Below, piece after piece: positions 435 through 22,516 of a DNA stretch of 37,023 nucleotides (the stretch's first letter is position 1; every line of letters begins with the position of its first letter). The stretch spans positions 1-37,023 of IMG/VR virus record IMGVR_UViG_3300036770_004184. One strand, written 5' to 3'. A program made the translations under genes and the position numbers. Below the pieces are notes generated by a model that had not been told where the DNA came from, did not search any database, and worked only from the letters and a program-made list of their open reading frames with translations. The stretch is from a virus.

Positions 435-2006
435 TCACCACCGGCGCTTCTTGGCAGTCTTGTCGAGCTTCTCCATGAATTTCTGGACTCTCCCTTCGGC
501 ATCCCCCCGTGATGTTTTATGACGGCGGGTTATTTCAATGTATGGGCGGCACGATAGCAGGTATCTGAGTGCGTCAGCGGCGTGGTCTTCGTCGTCGGTG
601 TCGATGTCTTCGACCTGTGTCTTGTCGTGGCGCATGGCCGGTAGCGTGCGGAGTAGGTGCTCGCAGGTAGCGAAAATTTTTAGTTTCGGCTCTCCGGTTA
701 CCTCACTCGGCTGGAGGTAGCGTCGGACGTTCTGCCACCCTGGGACTCGAGCGTTCTTGGCTTTGACGACCGGCACCCCGAGGCTGTTGTAGACGGCTCC
801 GACGGTGGTGCCGAGGCCGGACACGTTGCTGAAGGTGGAGGGGTCGATGGCCGAGGTGACGATGTGTTCGGGCTTGCCGTCGATCTTGGATAGCTCTTTG
901 ACTCGGCTTGCCTGCTGGGCAGCGGTGAGTCCTTTGCTGTAGTCCTCCCGGTAGACGTAGCAGGTGCCGTCGGCGGGGTCCCATGCGCCCCATAGGCAGC
1001 AGTATGGGTTGGCGGTACCGAAGTCGATGCCCCGATACCGGGGCCAGTCGGCGGGGATGGCGAACGGGGTGACGACGTGGAGGTCGCGCCGGAACTCGGT
1101 GAAATACTGGCCGGTGAAGGTATCCCAGTCGCCGAGCAGTTTCTGCTTACGTTCCGTCTCCGGCAGCATGGATAGGTGCTTGCGGTAGGTGGGGTCGATG
1201 TGGGGGTTGTCGTCCACGGTACTCGGGACGAAGGCGACGACGAGGTGGTCGTTCGGATCGTGGGGGATGTCGACTTTGGCGAGTTCGTTGTTGTCGTCGG
1301 GTAGTTCGACCCGCCGGACGACGTCGGGGTTCTCGAAGCCTTCCCGCACGTCGTAGACGACGGCGTACCGGCCGTTGGCCGTGGGCTGGACCAGCATCTT
1401 GTAGAGGAACGTGTGGCCCCTATCGCCGGGGTTGGTGGCGAACATGACGTGGGTTCGGACGCCCAGGGACGCCATCCGGCGGCTGGTACGGAGTCGACCG
1501 GAAATCATCAGCATCTGGTAGGGGGTGAACTGGGTGGCTTCGTCGAATCCGATGAAGTCGTATTCGGCCGACATGAACTGGCCGACGTCCTCGTCTCGAG
1601 AGCAGTAGCCGTATTCGATGATGGAGCCGTTGTCGTACCACCAGGCTTTCACGTTGTCAATGGATCGCAACTGAGCGGATACGTCTAGTTGGGCGTACCG
1701 CACCTGGGAGCGGATGATGAGGGACCGGCGCAGTTCGGGTAGGGCGGTTCGGATCAGCAGGGTACGGTGACCTGGGTATTTGGCTGAGAGTTCGTGGGCG
1801 TGGTAGGCCAACAACTCGGACTTGCCGCCACCCGCGGCCCCGCCGTAAAGCAGCCAATCGGTTTTGCCGACGAGAATGTGGGCGCGTTCCTGCCGAATGT
1901 TGCCGGTGAGGCGCCAGGATTGGAGGTCTGCCTCAAGTAGACGTAGGTATTCGTCCTGTTCGGCGGCAGATAGCTGGACAAACTCGTCGTCTGACAGCAA
2001 ATTCAC
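435..2006 (-). CDS. terL: Terminase large subunit (ATPase and nuclease)
   Basis: This is the DNA-packaging motor that cuts concatemers and pumps DNA through the portal. The 523-residue product has a Walker A loop at residues 55-63 (GGAAGGGKS), a Walker B at 151-156 (FIGFDE), and a coupling motif at about 190-197 (ATNPGDRG). The RNase H-like nuclease domain has acidic residues at D328 (YRGIDFG), D388 (AIDPS) and in the DEDHAADALRY motif at 472-482. The length is typical of the family. It starts at a GTG that overlaps the stop of the upstream gene (GTGA), which indicates translational coupling to the likely small subunit. All motifs look intact, so an active enzyme is expected. Confidence 0.96.
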   Translation of the reverse strand: MNLLSDDEFVQLSAAEQDEYLRLLEADLQSWRLTGNIRQERAHILVGKTDWLLYGGAAGGGKSELLAYHAHELSAKYPGHRTLLIRTALPELRRSLIIRSQVRYAQLDVSAQLRSIDNVKAWWYDNGSIIEYGYCSRDEDVGQFMSAEYDFIGFDEATQFTPYQMLMISGRLRTSRRMASLGVRTHVMFATNPGDRGHTFLYKMLVQPTANGRYAVVYDVREGFENPDVVRRVELPDDNNELAKVDIPHDPNDHLVVAFVPSTVDDNPHIDPTYRKHLSMLPETERKQKLLGDWDTFTGQYFTEFRRDLHVVTPFAIPADWPRYRGIDFGTANPYCCLWGAWDPADGTCYVYREDYSKGLTAAQQASRVKELSKIDGKPEHIVTSAIDPSTFSNVSGLGTTVGAVYNSLGVPVVKAKNARVPGWQNVRRYLQPSEVTGEPKLKIFATCEHLLRTLPAMRHDKTQVEDIDTDDEDHAADALRYLLSCRPYIEITRRHKTSRGDAEGRVQKFMEKLDKTAKKRRW

Positions 2007-3263: not shown

Positions 3264-3269
3264 CATATT

Positions 3270-3825
3270 CCCTGTCTGGTAGGGCTTGTATCCAGACCCA
3301 CATAGCGTTGCTGTACCCTGAGAAGCCCCGAGTAACGGACTGATCTGCCCAGATCTACCGCGGAACCGGCTGGACGCAAATCGGCGAAGAGTCGATCACT
3401 GTAGTGCAAGAAGGGGGTGGGCCAAGGCCGAAAGGCGGCCCCCGGCGCCGTGTGGCTATTTACGTAGTCATGCCCCGAATCAGGGTGAAGTAGTACTCGA
3501 GTGGACATCGTCAAGGTCCGGCAGTCGGTCAGCGAGGGCAACCGACGGGGGGCGTAAGCCAGCTATACCTTGGATACAAGGCTGGCGCACAGCAGACAGG
3601 TCGCCAGGGCGACCCGGATGCCCTGAGGGCAACCGAGCGAAGCGAGGGCGGCAGCCCAACTGAGCGCAGCGAAGGCGGGAGCGTCCCTTCGGACCCCGTA
3701 GGGCGAATGGTTACATCGGTGATAGCAACATCGATGACAGCATCCCGGTGTCAGCCGCTCGACTTGCCACACGAAAAGCGTGTGGTAACCGAAGTCAGTA
3801 GCCCATACCGCCATAGCGGGGGTCA
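3270..3825 (+). ncRNA. Candidate large structured RNA: dense array of perfect hairpins
   Basis: This stretch has no convincing reading frame but many perfect or near-perfect stem-loops. They include GTCTGG/CCAGAC (3274-3297), GATCTG/CAGATC (about 3343-3356), GGGCC-aag-GCC[GAAA]GGC-GGCCC with a GNRA loop (3419-3441), GTCGGT/ACCGAC (3524-3546), nested GCCAGC and CCTTG[GATA]CAAGG (about 3558-3588), GGTCGC[CAGG]GCGACC (about 3599-3614), TGCCC[TGA]GGGCA, GGGC[GGCA]GCCC, GTCC[CTTC]GGAC, CCACACG[AAAAG]CGTGTGG (3767-3785) enclosed by GACTT/AAGTC, and CCGC[CATA]GCGG (about 3809-3820). A-rich and GNRA-type loops on the plus strand and the upstream rightward gene favour plus-strand transcription. Phages of lake bacteria are known to carry giant RNAs such as GOLLD and ROOL, but I cannot assign a family by eye. 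Confidence 0.45.
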
Positions 3826-3846
3826 AAAAATACGGGAGGATGTATT

Positions 3847-3896
3847 GGGATAGGGGGGCGGGGGACCCCCCCTGGGGGCGTGGCGGGGGGCTAGGG
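3847..3896. other. G-tract / C-tract with G-quadruplex and hairpin potential
   Basis: Six G-runs of 3 to 6 bases on the plus strand (3847-3849, 3853-3858, 3860-3864, 3874-3878, 3885-3890, 3894-3896) are interrupted by one run of seven C (3866-3872). The C-run can pair with the GGGGGG before or after it, so a hairpin and a G-quadruplex would compete. It lies right after the hairpin array, in the only large noncoding segment of the window and upstream of the terminase genes. That makes it a candidate for a packaging or replication signal (inference). Confidence 0.4.
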
Positions 3897-4406
3897 CATG
3901 GTGCGACTGTTACCCCTACCCCTGGGGTCACACTCACCACGACGCCCACCCCGATCGACACCGACGGTGGGGCATGGGCGCTCGAGCATTGCGTCGTCGG
4001 CATTCGCCTCGACGCCTCGAGGACACTCGAGCACGTCGACCTCGAGGACGATCCCCCACACTGCGCGGCTCGAGCAACACGTCGACACTCGACCAATAAC
4101 GTCATGACGAAATAGGCACCGGTACTAGCACCCGTCTCGAACTCGAGCGGCGCTCCAGCGGCCGTATGGCTCACGGCGTTTCCGGTTTCGTCGAGTCGAG
4201 CAGACTCGAGCACGGCCTCGAGGACAGTCGATCCGCCCTAGCCATGGCGTGCTTCCCGACAGACTCGAGCGCTCGAGCACACGGGGTCAGGTATCGCTCC
4301 TCCAGATGGCCCCTATCTCGATCCTAGATGATTTCCTGGTGGTTATCTTCTGCTCGAGGTCGAGGTGTGTTCTATTCTGGGGGGTGGCTCGTCGAGTTGT
4401 CGAGTC

Positions 4407-4423
4407 CCGACCCTGCCGGTCGG
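4407..4423 (+). promoter_or_regulatory. Hairpin in the leader of the rightward operon
   Basis: CCGACC-CTGCC-GGTCGG forms a perfect 6-bp stem that ends 7 bases before the AAAGGGGG ribosome site of the gene at 4443. It has no following T-run, so it may be a leader structure or operator rather than a terminator. Confidence 0.35.
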
Positions 4424-4442
4424 TTATTCCAAAGGGGGCGCC

Positions 4443-4955
4443 ATGCGCGCTAGTTATTCCATCCATCCACCTGCTCGAGGTGAGTCTGTCGAGTGGCGCG
4501 TGGTGCGCGTCTATCGGGACGGTGTTCGTCGAGTGGGGTCGCTTGTCCTCGATGACTGGGATCGTGCTCAGGATGTTGCACAGTCTGCGCTCGATGAGCC
4601 GGGCATGGCTCGGATCGTGCTCGAGGGGCGGCCGCTCGATTCTGATGAGTGGCGTCGAGACGTCGACTATTCGCTCGACGATGAGTTCGAAGCGGTCGCG
4701 GTCGCGTTCTCGGTGCTTCCGGCGGCGTCGGGCTTGTCGATCCATGAGCAGCGCGGCTATTGGGTCGAGAACTCGAGCACGGGGCGTGTGTGTTCCGGGT
4801 GGTTCTCGTACTCGATGAGTGACTCAAGCGTTGTTGTGCGTCGCAAGGTGGGCGGGCGTCGGTCGGTGTCGTTCTCAACTGTTGACCGTGGTCGTTTCGT
4901 GCTCGACTCGAGCGCGAAGCCGGGTGTGTTGACTGCGTGGGGGTGGTCGTTGTGA
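4443..4955 (+). CDS. Hypothetical protein, first gene of the TCGA-rich operon
   Basis: The 170-residue product starts at an ATG preceded by AAAGGGGGCGCC, a clear ribosome site. Longer in-frame starts upstream have no such signal. The sequence is acidic and beta-rich with many Trp, Tyr, Ser and Asp residues (VEWRVVRVYRDG, EQRGYWVENSS, GWFSYSMSDSS) and no membrane segment or cysteine cluster. No family is recognised. It overlaps the next gene by 4 bases (GTGA), so the five genes from here to 7081 are probably made from one coupled message. Codon choice is dominated by TCGA-containing codons. Confidence 0.75.
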   Translation: MRASYSIHPPARGESVEWRVVRVYRDGVRRVGSLVLDDWDRAQDVAQSALDEPGMARIVLEGRPLDSDEWRRDVDYSLDDEFEAVAVAFSVLPAASGLSIHEQRGYWVENSSTGRVCSGWFSYSMSDSSVVVRRKVGGRRSVSFSTVDRGRFVLDSSAKPGVLTAWGWSL

Positions 4956-5680
4956 GCGGCGGCCGTTGGACGTTTGTTGACGTCGAGTCAGGGACCGTCG
5001 AGGCGGTCGCGGCGTCGAGTTGGTGCGTCGACGTCGAGGCGCTCAATCGAGACGAAGCCGGGGTGCTCGGCGAGTGTGAGCCGACCGGGTTTTACGGTGA
5101 GACGGCGCTCGAGATTCTCGAGGCTCGAGGCGTGGCGCTCGAGCGGGCGCTCGACGTGGTCGATGGTCTGCGGGTGTCGTCGACGCTCGACGTCGAGTCG
5201 CTCGCTCGAGCGGTCGACTGTGCTCGAGTGTTGTCGCTCGAGTTGAGGGTGCTCGAGGACGTGCGGCGGGCTGCGGTCGATGAACTGCGGCGGGCGTTGC
5301 TGATGCTCGAGTGCATCGGGTCGGGTGATTTTGATTCGGAGCAGGCTCGAGGGTGGCTCGTGGTGCTCGAGGCGGCTCCGTCTGGGTTGCACGGTGCGCT
5401 CGTCGAGGCGGCCGACGTGCTCGACGTCGAGGTGCTCGAGCGGGCGGCTCTGCTCGAGGAGCACGGTTCGCTTGAGGCGTGGGCGTCTGATTCGGGATAC
5501 TCGAGGCGCGGTACGGCGCTCTCGTGGTTCGACGAGTACGGCGACGAAGTCGACATCGAGGCCGAGTTCGAAGCGGCGCTCGAGTCTCGAGTCGATTACG
5601 TCCTGAAGCGTGGGCGGTTTGCACCTCGAGCGGCGGCCGTCGAGTCGAGCCCGATCATCCTCGAGGGTGGTCGGTCATGA
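4952..5680 (+). CDS. Leu/Glu/Ala-rich helical hypothetical protein
   Basis: The 242-residue protein starts at the GTG that overlaps the previous stop (GTGA); a start 15 bases upstream is also open. A short beta-rich N-terminus (GGRWTFVDVESGTVEA) is followed by long Leu-, Ala-, Val- and Glu-rich helices (about residues 50-190) whose heptad-like leucines suggest helical bundles or coiled coil. The C-terminal 40 residues are more basic. The Leu-Glu and Val-Glu richness is partly forced by the CTCGAG and GTCGAG words in the DNA. No domain is recognised. Its stop overlaps the next start (ATGA). Confidence 0.75.
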   Translation: MSGGRWTFVDVESGTVEAVAASSWCVDVEALNRDEAGVLGECEPTGFYGETALEILEARGVALERALDVVDGLRVSSTLDVESLARAVDCARVLSLELRVLEDVRRAAVDELRRALLMLECIGSGDFDSEQARGWLVVLEAAPSGLHGALVEAADVLDVEVLERAALLEEHGSLEAWASDSGYSRRGTALSWFDEYGDEVDIEAEFEAALESRVDYVLKRGRFAPRAAAVESSPIILEGGRS

Positions 5681-6669
5681 GGCGCGACCGTTTTGCGGCC
5701 CCTCGGCGTTTGTCGAGGGGCCGCCTCGAGGTGGCGTGTCGATGCGGTGAACGGGTGCGGCTTGCTCTCCATTTCGATTCGAAGACTTCGCCGCGGGTGC
5801 GGCTCGAGGGGCGCACGGCTAAAGCCGACGTTCCGAACGCATTCCCGCTACCGGCGGGGCCGCTCGAGGACGGCGGCACCTGTCCGGGTGCGACGGCGGC
5901 GTGTCGAGACTGCTACGCGGCGGGCCTCGAGGCGTGGGCGCGGCCATTTGGACTCATGGCCTCGAGGAATCTCGAGGCGCTCGAGCACTTGTACGGGTGC
6001 GGCGGGCGTCGAGCGGTCGAGGCGGCTCTCGTCGATCTCGTCGAGCGGTCGGCCATCGAGCAGCGTCTCGAGGGCGTCGAGTCCCCGGCGTTTCGATGGA
6101 TGAGTGACGGCGACCTGTTCGCGCCCTGGTTCGCTCGAGCGGTGCGGCACGTCATCGAGTCGACCTCGAGCGTCGATCATTGGCTGTACACGCGCTCGAC
6201 TGGCCTCGTGCGGCACGTCGTTACGGCGGCGCCTAATGCTCGGATCTACGTTTCGGTCGACCGGCACAACCTCGCTCGAGCGGTCGACGTGGCTCGACGT
6301 CATCGGCTCCCGGTGGCGCTGCTCGCGCTCGACGACGTCGACGCTGCGGCTCTGTGGGCGCGTGTGCTCGAGCGGTGGGCGGGCGTGGCACCTGTGCGGC
6401 GTTGTCCTGTGACGGCCGCTTACGTGGACGGCTCCGGGTTTCCGGCTCACGTTGTCGGCCCTGATGGGCGGCGCTCGAGTCTCGTCGAGGGCGGCGGGGC
6501 GGTGGGGGCGTGCGTCGCGTGCGGCTTGTGTCTCCCTGGAGGCCTCGAGGCGTCGGTGCTGTTCACGGTTCACGGCGGCCACGCTCGAGACGGCTCGAGG
6601 GGTCGACTCGGTGCGGCCGTCGAGGTGCGTCGACGTCGAGCGCTCGACCTCGAGGCGGTGACGTCGTGA
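5677..6669 (+). CDS. GP88-like cysteine-rich protein
   Basis: The 330-residue product starts at the coupled ATG at 5677. The N-terminal part has a conserved-looking block: SKTSPR, then NAFPLPAG, then CPGATAACRDCYA (C69, C76, C79). This resembles mycobacteriophage Gp88-type proteins, in which a SKT...LPAG...CPGA...CYA signature is typical (family recall, not searched). A middle region (about 140-220) contains WMSDGDLF, HWLYTRS, and SVDRHNLARAVDVARR followed by PVALLALDD, reminiscent of a barrel-like enzyme. A second cluster, C243 plus CVACGLC (C279, C282, C285), lies near the C-terminus. Together these suggest an iron-sulfur or zinc enzyme. The reaction is unknown. Codon usage is extremely biased toward TCGA words. 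Confidence 0.72.
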   Translation: MRRDRFAAPRRLSRGRLEVACRCGERVRLALHFDSKTSPRVRLEGRTAKADVPNAFPLPAGPLEDGGTCPGATAACRDCYAAGLEAWARPFGLMASRNLEALEHLYGCGGRRAVEAALVDLVERSAIEQRLEGVESPAFRWMSDGDLFAPWFARAVRHVIESTSSVDHWLYTRSTGLVRHVVTAAPNARIYVSVDRHNLARAVDVARRHRLPVALLALDDVDAAALWARVLERWAGVAPVRRCPVTAAYVDGSGFPAHVVGPDGRRSSLVEGGGAVGACVACGLCLPGGLEASVLFTVHGGHARDGSRGRLGAAVEVRRRRALDLEAVTS

Positions 6670-6788
6670 GCAGCCCGTGTCCTGATGACTTCCTGCTCGA
6701 GTGCGGCGCTCGAGGCGGCTCCTGGTGGCCTCTCGCGGTCGGTGTGGTGTTTCTCGGGTGGGCGTGGCGTCGAGGGTGGCCTCGATGA
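6666..6788 (+). CDS. Small membrane protein (40 aa)
   Basis: It starts at a GTG overlapping the previous stop (GTGA) and ends overlapping the next start (ATGA), so both junctions support it. After about 16 soluble residues there is one hydrophobic stretch (SWWPLAVGVVFLGWAW) long enough for a membrane helix, followed by an Arg-rich tail (RRGWPR). That charge pattern suggests an N-out, C-in orientation. No family is recognised. Confidence 0.65.
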   Translation: MSSPCPDDFLLECGARGGSWWPLAVGVVFLGWAWRRGWPR

Positions 6789-7081
6789 GCGCTCGAGACG
6801 TGTACCGGATGCCGCTCTGCTCGGGCGGTGACGTCGAGCATCGGCACGGCCGCGGGTGTCTCCCGCTGCTGGTGCGGGCGTTGCCATCGGCCCCGGCGGG
6901 GTGGCGGTGGGAATACGGCAGCGTGTCGGGCGGCTGGGGCATCTGGCTCGCTCGAGTGGGCGGCTCTGGTGCTCGGTGGTACGTGCTCGGGCTACCGGCG
7001 GCCGACACGGTGGCTCGGCTCGCGGCGCTCGTCGAGTCATTCGCCGCGGGTGCTCGAGGGGTGCTCGACGGTCCGGCCTAA
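6785..7081 (+). CDS. Hypothetical protein, last gene of the TCGA-rich operon
   Basis: The 98-residue protein begins at an ATG overlapping the previous stop. It is rich in Gly, Ala, Leu and Trp, with a beta-like centre (GWRWEYGSVSGGWGIWLARV) and an amphipathic C-terminal helix (ADTVARLAALVESFAAGARG). The N-terminal 25 residues contain His and Cys (CSGGDVEHRHGRGC) that might bind a metal. It is followed 20 bases later by a strong hairpin that closes the operon. No family is recognised. Confidence 0.7.
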   Translation: MSARDVYRMPLCSGGDVEHRHGRGCLPLLVRALPSAPAGWRWEYGSVSGGWGIWLARVGGSGARWYVLGLPAADTVARLAALVESFAAGARGVLDGPA

Positions 7082-7101
7082 TCGACCCCGCTCGAGGACG
7101 G

Positions 7102-7136
7102 CGGCCCCGCTCGATTCCGGTCGAGCGGGGCCGTTT
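7102..7136 (+). terminator. Strong hairpin terminator at the end of the rightward operon
   Basis: A perfect 13-bp stem (CGGCCCCGCTCGA at 7102-7114 and its complement at 7121-7133) has a 6-base loop and a short TTT at 7134-7136. The position directly after the last operon gene fits transcription termination. The T-run is short, so efficiency is uncertain. The stem itself carries two TCGA words. Confidence 0.75.
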
Positions 7137-7250
7137 CGCGTCTCAACTCGAGCGCGCTCGCGTTGTATGTAGGTCATACAAGCGGCCGGCCGCGGGCGGG
7201 TCGGCAGCTCGAGCCACCGGGGAATGACCAACCCCTCTGGGTGTGGGCTG

Positions 7251-7345: not shown

Positions 7346-8257
7346 ATGGCGACTGTTCGGTCTGCGACGGCACGTTTCTTGGGTGACCAGGGGTCGGTCC
7401 ACACTCGGCGCCGGTACAAAAAAGACATCATGACGTGGCAGCGGTGGTGCGGCGAGTACGGTGTCCACCCTCTCGATGGGTCGGTGTTGAACGCTCAACT
7501 GTTCCTCGAATGGATGGAGGATCGGTACACCACGTCGTCGGTGTTGTCGAGGTTCTCGGGTATCTCGAGATGGTTTGACTATCTGCTCGAGCACGGTGTC
7601 ATCAAGGGCCACGGCTTTCGGGATGTCAAGAAGCCTCGCCGGGATCGACGTCTTGTGGATTTCCGTTTGCCGACGGAGAACGAGCTGCTGGCTCTCATGC
7701 AGCTAGCTGCGAAGCGTGGTCCTCGTTGGGAATGGCTTGTGGGCATGGTGTCGTATTGCGGGCTGGATTGCGCCGAGGCTTTGCGGGTGCGGTCGACGGA
7801 CGTTCGGACGTGGGAGGGTCGCACGCTCATTCGGGTGACGTCTCGGCGGGGCAACAAGCGCGAGGTTCCGGTCAATGGGCGTCTTGAGCTGGTGACGTTG
7901 GGGTTGGCTGGGGTGTTTGCTCCGACGACGGCGTTTGGGCCTGTTCAGACGTCGAAGTGGGCGGCCGAGCAGATTGGCCTTATGAGTCGGGAGGCGACGG
8001 GCCGTCTCATCAACGTGCAAGACCTGCGTCGTTATGCCGTGTTGCGGCAAGCCGAGCGTGGGGTGCCGGTGCCGGTCATTGCCCGCTGGCTGGGGCATAC
8101 GACGGATCAATGGGTGCGGGAGACGTTGGGTCTGGTTAATCCGGTTGCCGAGGTCACTCAGGCTGACGTATTGGAGTCGATCCAATTGGAGATGGTTGGC
8201 GACGTCGACCGCGTGCCTGATTCGCTGATCGACGGTGCTGCTCGACCCGTTGGCTGA
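7346..8257 (+). CDS. Tyrosine-recombinase-like protein lacking key catalytic residues
   Basis: The 303-residue protein has the layout of a phage integrase. A SAM-like core-binding domain spans about residues 1-100 (SVHTRRRYKKDIMTWQRWC), and a catalytic-type domain spans about 110-265. The first Arg of the usual GxRxxE motif is Asp (GLDCAEAL, D141), and the His of the H-x-x-R box is Gln (VQDLRR, Q225). The position of the nucleophilic Tyr, about 10 residues after LGH (H251), is occupied by Thr/Leu (VRETLGLV). No tyrosine exists after Y230. Lys171 (RGNKREVP), R228 and H251 remain. It is probably not a working integrase, and a DNA-binding or regulatory role is plausible. Its 3' end overlaps the convergent gene at 8154 by 104 bases. 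No repressor gene is visible nearby. Confidence 0.8.
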   Translation: MATVRSATARFLGDQGSVHTRRRYKKDIMTWQRWCGEYGVHPLDGSVLNAQLFLEWMEDRYTTSSVLSRFSGISRWFDYLLEHGVIKGHGFRDVKKPRRDRRLVDFRLPTENELLALMQLAAKRGPRWEWLVGMVSYCGLDCAEALRVRSTDVRTWEGRTLIRVTSRRGNKREVPVNGRLELVTLGLAGVFAPTTAFGPVQTSKWAAEQIGLMSREATGRLINVQDLRRYAVLRQAERGVPVPVIARWLGHTTDQWVRETLGLVNPVAEVTQADVLESIQLEMVGDVDRVPDSLIDGAARPVG

Positions 8258-19660: not shown

Positions 19661-21190
19661 CTAGCCTCCGAAGGCTTGCAGGAACTCAAACGACATCAGA
19701 ATGTTGACAAGAATCTGTGCCTTCACGGCGTCACCTGTCTGCTCGTAATACTGACGTCCAATGTCGCGAATCGCATTCTTCTGCTGTTCAATCGTCAATG
19801 CTCCCGACTGCAACAGACCGTCTCGAGACTGAGCCATGAAGTCGACAAACTCCTGATCGGTCAGGGCTTCTCGAGCCAGACGGTCGGGCAGGTCACCGGC
19901 AGCGCTGCTCACAGACACGCCTAGGTTGTTCGCAACCTCAAGATCAAACGCTTCTTCTTCGGCCGTAGCCGGTCCCTCGTTCGCCTTTTCCATCGCCGAG
20001 TCATACTGGAACTGCTGGTATTGGGCGAGAGCGTCGGGGCCACCGGTCTGGAAGATGATTTCTTCCGTTGTAGCGTTGGGGTTGAATCCTGCCTGCATCA
20101 TGTTGAACTTCATTTGGGCCTCGGCGAGGTCCATTTGTTCTTGCATGTAGTTGATGTCTGCCTGCGGGCCGAACAGGCCAGCGGCAAGCGCAGGGTCGAG
20201 GCCGAACTGGCTTGTGGCGATCTGCTGCTGATACTGGCTCATGGGTGTGGCAGCGAGTTCGGCGGCGAACTGGCGCAGCGGATCGACCTGCTGGGCCAAG
20301 TCCTGCTGCAGTTCGGCCCCCACGTTTCTTTGGGCGACAGCCGAGGCGACCGGCGTGAGCTGCTCAACGGTGCCTTGAGTTTGGTTCGTGTACGGCACGA
20401 GTAAGGGTTCGACGGCTCCGGTGGCGGGGTTGTAAACGTCCTGGGGTACGGCTTCGCCGGTGCCTCGCACCAAGTTCATGCGATCCATCGCGGCGCCGTA
20501 TGTAGCGTTGCGGATGTCTTGCTTGGCCCTTGCTTCAGCTAGCGCACGCTGGAAGAAATTGTCGCCGATTTCAGCCGGGGCATTATTGACGAGGCGCTGC
20601 AAGTCGGCGTATTCGGCACGCTGAGCGGCTCGAGTCGGCAGGTAAGCATCAAGGAAATCTTCTTCGGTAATTCGGCTACGGCGCAAGCGATCTTCGTAAT
20701 CCTGCATTGTTTCCAAGCCTTGGATGGCCGGATCGAATGCTGCTTGGCGGGCCTGCAATTCAGCCAACCTCCCCTGCGCCGACCGAACACCGGCCGAACT
20801 GGACAGGGGCGATGTCAATTCCTGCTGGAGTCGACGGTATTCGTCTCGAGCGGCGCTTTGCGCGCCAGCGACCAGGCCGGATTGGGCGATGTCGGCTTCC
20901 AACAATGCTTGCTGCTGGGCCTGCGGGATGAGCGACGCGATGCCCTGTACCGCCGACTCGAGCATGCCGAGGGTGGTATACCCGCCGTACTTTTCGCCGT
21001 AGGTGGGTGCTGGGCCGCCGATGACCAATTTGGCGAACTCGCTGGGATCGTAGGCCGGGCCGGTAGATGGGCGCGAGAACGTGTACCCGCCGCGCATGCC
21101 GCTCGAACCTTGGTTGGCTACACGGGCGACGTCATCGACGGTGACGCCACGGACGCCGCGGCCAGCACGAAGCATGGGTGATTGGCTCAT
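19661..21190 (-). CDS. Putative internal virion protein (509 aa)
   Basis: The start MSQSPML at 21190 overlaps the upstream stop (ATGA); a longer open frame further upstream has no support. The protein is Ala/Gln/Leu-rich and helical, with many Gln repeats (QAQQQALLEAD, MSQYQQQIATS) and periodic Met-rich helices (NYMQEQMDLAEAQMKFNMMQ). Such composition is typical of ejection or core proteins in short-tailed phages. No enzyme motif is visible. Its stop lies 2 bases before the giant protein gene, with which it likely works. Confidence 0.7.
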   Translation of the reverse strand: MSQSPMLRAGRGVRGVTVDDVARVANQGSSGMRGGYTFSRPSTGPAYDPSEFAKLVIGGPAPTYGEKYGGYTTLGMLESAVQGIASLIPQAQQQALLEADIAQSGLVAGAQSAARDEYRRLQQELTSPLSSSAGVRSAQGRLAELQARQAAFDPAIQGLETMQDYEDRLRRSRITEEDFLDAYLPTRAAQRAEYADLQRLVNNAPAEIGDNFFQRALAEARAKQDIRNATYGAAMDRMNLVRGTGEAVPQDVYNPATGAVEPLLVPYTNQTQGTVEQLTPVASAVAQRNVGAELQQDLAQQVDPLRQFAAELAATPMSQYQQQIATSQFGLDPALAAGLFGPQADINYMQEQMDLAEAQMKFNMMQAGFNPNATTEEIIFQTGGPDALAQYQQFQYDSAMEKANEGPATAEEEAFDLEVANNLGVSVSSAAGDLPDRLAREALTDQEFVDFMAQSRDGLLQSGALTIEQQKNAIRDIGRQYYEQTGDAVKAQILVNILMSFEFLQAFGG

Positions 21191-21705
21191 CGAACCTTGA
21201 TCCCGAATGACGTGCCGCCGGGACGGATGGATTGGGAGGTGACTCGGCGGGCTGTTGCGGGGCGTGGGGTGATGGGGTTCGCCCACCGTTCGGCCGTGTC
21301 GGCGGTTCCGAGTCGTGTCACGGGCTGGGCGAAGCGGCCCATGTAGTCCTCTGCCTTTTTGAGAGCGTTATCGAAATAGGCTTTCAGCTCGGAAGCGCCC
21401 GACGTCGATCCTCCGGTGCCGGTCTTGCCTTCTTTGGCTGCCTTGCTCAACAGCTCCGGCAAACCGACGAGGTAGTCGCGCATTGCGGTGGCTTCTGTGA
21501 CGAGCGAGTTGACGGCTGGCTGGTAGCCGACGTCCATGATGTTTTCGTATTGGCTGATGTCGCCACCATAGCGTTGCAGGCGCTGGTTGATGAGGCCACG
21601 CTGACGTTCGGCTGCTGCCGGGATGTCCTGAATGAGCGCCTGGTTGCGGAGCGCCATGTCGAGGGCCAGTTGGGCCAAGGGGGTGCCAAAGGGGTTTTCT
21701 GCCAT
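21187..21705 (-). CDS. Putative small internal virion protein (172 aa)
   Basis: The 172-residue helical protein starts at the TAATG overlap with the upstream stop. The first 120 residues are amphipathic helices (LAQLALDMALRNQALIQD and ATAMRDYLVGLPELLSKAA); the last 40 are basic and Pro/Arg-rich. Its opening MAENPFG resembles the MAENPVLG opening of the giant protein gene downstream, which hints at shared targeting or common descent of the N-termini. Grouping with ejection proteins is by position. Confidence 0.65.
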   Translation of the reverse strand: MAENPFGTPLAQLALDMALRNQALIQDIPAAAERQRGLINQRLQRYGGDISQYENIMDVGYQPAVNSLVTEATAMRDYLVGLPELLSKAAKEGKTGTGGSTSGASELKAYFDNALKKAEDYMGRFAQPVTRLGTADTAERWANPITPRPATARRVTSQSIRPGGTSFGIKVR

Positions 21706-22496
21706 TATCGTTTCGGCACTCTAGGGCCGCCTCCTGCCTTGGGTGGTGGTGGACCAAAGATAGTTCCCGGTGGGATGTAGATGCCGTCGACAACTCCGCC
21801 GCCGTTGGGCAGGCGGCGGTCGGGGCCGCCGACGATGGTTCCTGGTGCTGTGCCAGGCGGGACGAAACCAGGCGGTGGCGTGCCAATTGGCCGACCGCCA
21901 GAACCAATTTCGTTTGGTCCACCTTGACCCGGTGGCTGCTGGGGCATGCCGGGCTGGGCGGGTCCACCAGAGGTAAGCGCGACCAATTCCCAAGCCCACT
22001 TGGCCTCGTTCCACACATAGTCGTAGCCGGGGGGCGGGTTGCCAGGCTTCGGCGGCTTGACTCGTGGTTGTTCCGCGGGTGGGGTTGGTGTCGGTTCTAC
22101 GGGCCGAGTAATGGTTCCTGGCGTGCCTGTTCCAGTTCCGCCACCACCGCCGCCGCCGGTACTTCCGCCGCCACCGGCTCCACCCGTGCCACCCTTGGCT
22201 TCAAGTTCGGCTAGCTGCTGAGCCAACGCCAATCCGGCACGGTTCCAAGCATCTTCACGCTCACCCAATGCTGCGAGCTGACCTGATTTTTCGGCTGCAC
22301 CCAATTCGACACGGCCGCGCATGCCTTCGCCGGACCGCAGAATACCGCGCGACTCTAGGTTGGCTTCGAGGTCGCGGTTGGCCTGCCGGTGCGCGGTTGC
22401 CAACTGGGCGATACGCGAGTCATAGGCAGACTGGGCGCGCTTCTTAGCGAGTTCGTATTCCCGTCTGTAGAGTTCGGCTGTTGCTTCGTAGGCCAT
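21705..22496 (-). CDS. Helical plus Gly/Pro-rich putative virion protein (263 aa)
   Basis: AGGAGA precedes the ATG. The first 100 residues are charged helix (ELYRREYELAKKRAQSAYDS and AQLATAHRQANRDLEANLES). They are followed by a Gly-rich run and a long Pro/Gly/Thr region (about 105-263) with repeats such as PPGFVPPGTAPG. It could be a flexible internal virion protein or a scaffold for the neighbouring large proteins. No family is recognised. Confidence 0.65.
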   Translation of the reverse strand: MAYEATAELYRREYELAKKRAQSAYDSRIAQLATAHRQANRDLEANLESRGILRSGEGMRGRVELGAAEKSGQLAALGEREDAWNRAGLALAQQLAELEAKGGTGGAGGGGSTGGGGGGGTGTGTPGTITRPVEPTPTPPAEQPRVKPPKPGNPPPGYDYVWNEAKWAWELVALTSGGPAQPGMPQQPPGQGGPNEIGSGGRPIGTPPPGFVPPGTAPGTIVGGPDRRLPNGGGVVDGIYIPPGTIFGPPPPKAGGGPRVPKR

Positions 22497-22516
22497 GAAG
22501 TCTCCTGAACCTCTGG

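Follow-up and report, generated by a model that had tools for sequence, protein, structure and literature searches.

An operon of a probable actinobacteriophage saturated with the palindrome TCGA/CTCGAG

Avoidance of short palindromes is the expectation for a phage genome, and the locus described here raises the question of what lies behind the crowding of one such word, TCGA and its extended form CTCGAG, within a single operon. The window, i.e., the whole stretch of DNA analysed, is a contig of 37,023 bases from an uncultured virus in IMG/VR. Its genes include those for a terminase large subunit, an SU10-like capsid protein, an exonuclease, RecT, WhiB and a tyrosine integrase; an Mtd_N domain is also present in the Pfam scans. 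In a phage collection, nearly all capsid matches were phages of Arthrobacter, Microbacterium and Cellulosimicrobium. Because these matches and WhiB agree, the host is, judging from the encoded proteins, probably an actinobacterium. A planctomycete host was considered and rejected: the terminase search led to a single contig from a metagenome bin assigned to planctomycetes, but the bin lacks WhiB, and the contig is probably misbinned, since the phage has both WhiB and capsid matches to actinobacterial phages. The late genes lie on the minus strand, and the operon g1–g5 together with the integrase on the plus strand; outside the island, genes were called with a simple caller written for the analysis. 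The features referred to below are as follows.

435–2006, minus strand: terminase large subunit, used as a control gene, in which TCGA is neither retained nor saturated
3818–3895, no strand assigned: conserved non-coding element (GGTCAAAAAATACGGGAG...G-run/C-run), kept in nearly all relatives
3955–7212, no strand assigned: island saturated with TCGA/CTCGAG (maximum-likelihood segment 3955–7151; final isolated site at 7209)
3955–4442, plus strand: non-coding leader with 24 TCGA and 11 CTCGAG, matching the genes in density
4095–4116, plus strand: 22-bp element AATAACGTCATGACGAAATAGG within the leader, identical but inverted in the relative L003
4443–4955, plus strand: g1, 170 aa, no family; L003 homologue 62% identical over 79 aa
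4937–5680, plus strand: g2, 247 aa, start GTG 4937 (GTG 4946 also possible), no family; 45% identical to its L003 counterpart
5677–6669, plus strand: g3, 330 aa, GP88 family (Pfam PF17338, E 5e-20)
6666–6788, plus strand: g4, 40-aa ORF with a weak L003 homologue
6785–7081, plus strand: g5, 98 aa, whose homologues adjoin g3 in L002–L009
7102–7133, plus strand: perfect 13-bp GC-rich hairpin 3′ of g5, read from the sequence
7346–8257, plus strand: tyrosine integrase, directly right of the island, unsaturated

The island bears 142 TCGA and 57 CTCGAG, against 32.3 (sd 4.9, maximum 46) and 3.7 (maximum 13), respectively, in 500 dinucleotide-preserving shuffles, and TCGA has the highest z among all tetramers in this region (23.8). 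The density of TCGA is 44.1 per kb in the maximum-likelihood segment (lnLR 111) and 7.5 per kb, or about 1 per 133 bases, outside the island; CTCGAG reaches 17.5 per kb in the operon, about 14-fold above the remainder of the genome. Both edges are sharp (3955 and about 7151), and the left one falls within non-coding DNA, where 3265–3954 is at background and 3955–4442 is saturated. The approximate counts that the initial annotation had made by hand, 41 TCGA with 18 CTCGAG in 4981–5700 and 24 TCGA in 3955–4440, were confirmed; the latter stretch also has 11 CTCGAG. The favoured word is (C/G)TCGA(G/C), with CTCGAG as its best form: inside the island it is mostly the C/G-flanked TCGA that is enriched, and outside it CTCGAG alone. 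The total palindrome content is near expectation, a single word being favoured. DNA-similarity searches with the island gave no phage match and one trivial plasmid match, and an Rfam search gave no match. Nor is the island a long tandem or dispersed repeat array, as its repeats are at most 32 nt long, 63–95% identical, and built around the words themselves.

The crowding does not follow from the encoded proteins. TCGA does occupy all three codon phases, as had been noticed, but unevenly (16/69/27 in phases 0/1/2, with xTC-GAx dominant). After per-gene codon shuffles of g1, g2, g3 and g5, z remained at 4.2–9.3, and non-coding DNA is as dense, which upholds the earlier view that protein sequence is not the cause. 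In these four genes, CTCGAG stands at 42 of the 51 places where the protein permits it (about 82%; 18 of 21 in g2, 17 of 22 in g3) and TCGA at 108 of 177; the figures for five other genes are 11 of 43 (about 26%) and 60 of 241. Expressed as odds, the coding multiplier over background is 4.7 for TCGA and 13.6 for CTCGAG, and the non-coding one, expressed as density, is 6.6 and 18, figures of similar size. The accumulation of the word in the operon is strong enough to shape codon choice.

Searches with the g3 protein brought up some two dozen loci for comparison. Two of them, L002 and L003, are one phage in two assemblies (identical over 15.8 kb), and this phage also bears an island, with 171 TCGA at 52 per kb over 3.3 kb and a g3 84% identical to that of the window. 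The coding TCGA of the window were retained in L003 at 65 of 98 places, compared with 88 of 276 for other NCGN (CMH odds ratio 4.9, p 3e-10); in the terminase control the odds ratio was 1.2. In the non-coding leader, retention may be inflated, because the alignment may be attracted by the words. The TCGA counts agree gene by gene (17/17, 41/44 and 44/44 in the window and L003, respectively), and density is equal despite an operon divergence of 20–40%, with the L003 words in partly non-homologous positions. Moreover, L003 has two added genes, x1 and x2, between g2 and g3, found only in its island, where 11 of 18 and 19 of 25 permissible TCGA, respectively, are filled; the x1 homologues in other phages, mostly with low-GC genomes, have 0–4 TCGA per kb, save one with 22. 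This matched density, together with survival under both the dinucleotide and the codon null, neither of which reproduces the observed crowding, supports the cause at the DNA level that had been proposed from the window.

The other relatives, with g3 38–55% identical, have no comparable island, save a partial one in L010 (19 TCGA per kb). The comparison with relatives, suggested at the outset as a check, therefore gave a divided answer: one related phage keeps the enrichment, and most homologous operons lack it, so that the island is not essential to the operon. The terminases are similar to those of all the relatives (82–87% identity; 82–85% in the island-less L004–L006), whereas the operon version shared by the window and L003 is distinct (g3 84% identical between the two and about 50% to the relatives). 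Close terminases without an island indicate a lineage-specific trait, the operon version and the island travelling together. Strain polymorphism was uninformative, as L227 and L228 differ at only 27 sites and L002 and L003 are identical. The relatives' operons appeared to have switched to other iterated words (CGCG, GGCC, CCGG), but this signal vanishes or is weak under the dinucleotide null.

Furthermore, CTCGAG is in excess outside the island, including in the relatives G5, G6, L232 and L240, which have none. Outside the island we counted 42 CTCGAG in the window, 45 in G1, 38 in G5 and 39 in G6, against 11, 10.5, 12 and 12 expected, several of the expected counts resting on a first-order model; under the codon shuffle the corresponding figures were 37 vs. 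9.4, 39 vs. 9.1, 35 vs. 9.8 and 33 vs. 11.2. CTCGAG ranks first among the 64 palindromic hexamers outside the island in the window, G1, G5, G6, L232 and L240, although palindromes in general are avoided in these genomes. The clade excess is 3–4-fold (about 3.8-fold in the window), at a genome-wide rate of about 1.2 per kb, and the sites occur in all codon phases and mostly at changing positions. TCGA as such showed little or no excess under the codon shuffle in the four long records, and no CTCGAG excess was seen in relatives of lower GC content, e.g., L233 and L235.

Most of the seven control phages behave in the opposite way. CTCGAG is absent from phiC31, Shocker, Adat, DS1 and a 50-kb stretch of Angela, where 10–39 are expected, and occurs once in ctEqG8 vs. 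9 expected; only MissWhite is at expectation, so that the word is avoided in six of the seven, and is enriched in the window, G1, G5 and G6. XhoI-type systems are common in actinobacteria, and we take the absence of CTCGAG from control phages as restriction avoidance. In the window, G1, G5 and G6, CTCGAG does not behave as an avoided restriction target.

The conserved element at 3818–3895 adjoins the terminase genes, and the first word of the island follows 60 bp to its right; the conservation and position of this element make it a candidate cos/packaging site. If it were one, the island would be an end of the virion DNA, as it probably is, and we infer a terminal early operon: the operon is of the early type, runs opposite to the late genes and lies between the candidate packaging element and the integrase. 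In this it resembles the GP88 early genes of mycobacteriophages and Streptomyces phages, since g3 belongs to the same family, PF17338, and its matches lie near the genome end in MissWhite (at 47.7 of 50.3 kb) and Angela (at 4.8 of 133.6 kb). Saturation is not part of this likeness, as MissWhite never exceeds 21 TCGA per kb, whereas the island reaches 55 per kb. The hairpin at 7102–7133, itself including two TCGA, is a possible terminator from its structure and place, but is not among the results of a consensus scan.

Taken together, the data are best accommodated if the density of (C/G)TCGA(G/C) is itself under pressure and a putative reader marks the operon through additive weak sites, a reading to which we give a probability of roughly 0.38. 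The reader would bind or modify DNA sequence-specifically and would be supplied by the actinobacterial host (or by the phage itself). Each possible site, coding or non-coding, would be subject to a roughly constant multiplier, about 5–7-fold for TCGA and 14–18-fold for CTCGAG, and many weak sites would sum, so that their density singles out the operon to be regulated, condensed or protected. In the rest of the genome, this factor would favour the full CTCGAG only, giving the milder genome-wide excess; one sequence-specific activity at two strengths would fit the word hierarchy inside and outside. The reader would respond to density, presumably under additive selection rather than biased mutation, although saturation, turnover and retention would equally come from repair or mutation with a bias. 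Gaps of 5–8 bp between sites are common and there is no 10–11 bp helical phasing, which makes it unlikely that single proteins occupy the sites in a regular array, as first imagined; around the words, no consensus beyond the C/G flank was found in the window and G1. The five operon genes had been offered as unknowns that might make or read the signal. One of them, g3, has a family, as stated above, and its AlphaFold model (mean pLDDT 49) was too poor for a structure search; none of the five has a known function that would make or read the word. Pfam scans of the window's genes revealed no methyltransferase, and DNA methyltransferases of PF01555, PF00145 and PF02384 are absent from the window, G1, G2 and G3.

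This absence also weighs on the nearest alternative, in which a host CTCGAG/TCGA methyltransferase coupled with biased mismatch repair creates and keeps the word; the phage clade would adopt its host's word throughout the genome, the operon being more exposed. Such a drive would suit the clade-wide excess at changing positions and in all phases, as well as the depletion of position-2 near-misses in the L003 island (TTGA 2 vs. 12, TGGA 3 vs. 22), and cyanobacterial iterated palindromes do track their methyltransferases (PMC4390886). However, the depletion is not transition-specific, TTGA is undepleted in the window, and the drive would need to be restricted to a single sharp-edged operon; we regard it as rather unlikely. 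Somewhat more doubtful is that the word density defines a chromatin-like or protected domain on the terminal operon, read as density by the host or the phage.

In the island-less relatives, a C5-methyltransferase lies directly past the integrase (13 loci, some near-identical); none of these has an island, and the enzyme is absent from the island-bearing window and G1. Word-saturated terminal DNA might accordingly replace the enzyme in counter-defence, as decoy or modification-titrating DNA, and the lack of CTCGAG in five of the seven control phages, as for a restriction target, agrees with this. The lineages are few, however, with a naive Fisher p of 0.02 that ignores kinship, neither the methyltransferase nor an island was seen in the examined DNA of L232 and L244, and many sites in early DNA should cost dearly where the site is cut. 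The exclusion may have significance or may reflect kinship within the clade, and counter-defence is improbable. Slightly less credence still is due to an effect at the RNA level, through many self-complementary CUCGAG words that would fold the operon transcript extensively or let it associate with itself. The island roughly matches a transcription unit, and predicted folding energies lie below those of codon-preserving shuffles (z −4.3 for g2, −4.1 for a 200-aa gene of L125 and −0.2 for the terminase), but this follows from the palindromes themselves, and one word is favoured rather than complementarity in general. The least probable reading, an operon imported from a TCGA-rich genome with its signature not yet lost, would suit the distinct operon version beside a terminase similar to all, but is already disfavoured by the equal density and selective retention despite divergence and by the saturated inserted genes.

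Comparable islands were present in few of the 260 contigs checked. At least two contigs, L125 and L015, drawn from viral contigs pre-selected for clustered CTCGAG, bear clear islands of the same word, weaker than that of the window (32 per kb over 5.6 kb, present in a second assembly, and 19 per kb over 5.4 kb, respectively). They have no homologues of g1–g5 or the integrase, and L125 has a different capsid type. Outside their islands neither shows a CTCGAG excess, so that the recurrence is no proof of the same cause.

Among known systems, the closest are the highly iterated palindromes (HIPs) of cyanobacteria, HIP1 (GCGATCGC) and its alternates (Elhai 2015, PMC4390886). Like them, TCGA/CTCGAG is a short GC-rich palindrome strongly over-represented against composition in coding and non-coding DNA, and the clade rate of CTCGAG falls within the published HIP range of 1000–2000 per Mb (PMC4390886). 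HIPs, however, are described as genome-wide traits of cellular genomes with cognate methyltransferases (PMC4390886), whereas here the extreme density is limited to one sharp-edged phage operon and only the milder excess extends beyond it. Possibly, the preferred reading, a density mark under pressure, describes an extreme case of a CTCGAG bias that is linked to the host and HIP-like. In subcluster B3 mycobacteriophages, GATC/GGATCC are over-represented for unexplained reasons (Siranosian et al. 2015, PMC4841201). These too are actinobacterial phages with a palindromic 4-mer and 6-mer in excess where phages usually avoid them, and their genome-wide excess, about 4-fold, is similar to that seen here; for B3 a single-region explanation was rejected, in contrast to the operon of the window. 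Mycobacteriophages of clusters E and L likewise have terminal regions of a few kb with their own tetranucleotide usage, described as “self-similar but genome-different” (PMC4841201), but those of cluster L consist of repeated k-mers, those of cluster E are unexplained, and palindrome saturation is unreported there (PMC4841201 and the open-access literature). The island is also unlike the stoperators of L5-type phages. These form arrays of asymmetric repressor sites with a longer asymmetric consensus.

In this work, we describe a phage that gathers a short palindrome to near saturation in one operon and, less strongly, throughout its clade. The question posed by iterated palindromes, namely whether selection or biased repair maintains them and what reads them, becomes testable in a small, recodable DNA. 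If the operon is indeed marked by density, the word that serves as the mark is one absent altogether from several other actinobacterial phages. The finding suggests that uncultured actinobacteria harbour a CTCGAG-linked process not yet described.

A large C5-cytosine methyltransferase gene adjoins the integrase gene on its far side at 13 loci of relatives, all of which lack the TCGA/CTCGAG island, and the middle part of the encoded enzyme is long and variable. No match to this methyltransferase was found in the window or in the island-bearing relative G1. The example locus is as follows:

L138:9886-11664 (G5, a relative without the island), C5-cytosine methyltransferase gene.

In the G3 phage (L137; G3 positions 21000-22500), AGCT was also strongly enriched (35 vs. 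7), at one end of the TCGA-rich segment. CGGCCG was strongly enriched in G2 (L134-L135) outside its own island (57 vs. 20). In five cultured actinobacterial phages (L249, L251, L252, L253 and L255), CTCGAG was totally absent, the expected counts being 10-39.

Among the minus-strand structural genes of the window, one encodes an Mtd_N domain (major tropism determinant, N-terminal). Two non-coding elements were also distinguished:

Window 4095-4116 and 8109-8130 in L003 (a related phage keeping the island), 22-bp element.
Window 3818-3895, G-run/C-run element, conserved.

The former, with the palindromic core CGTCATGACG, has the same sequence in both phages, placed in opposite orientations. The latter is common to nearly all relatives and is a candidate cos site.
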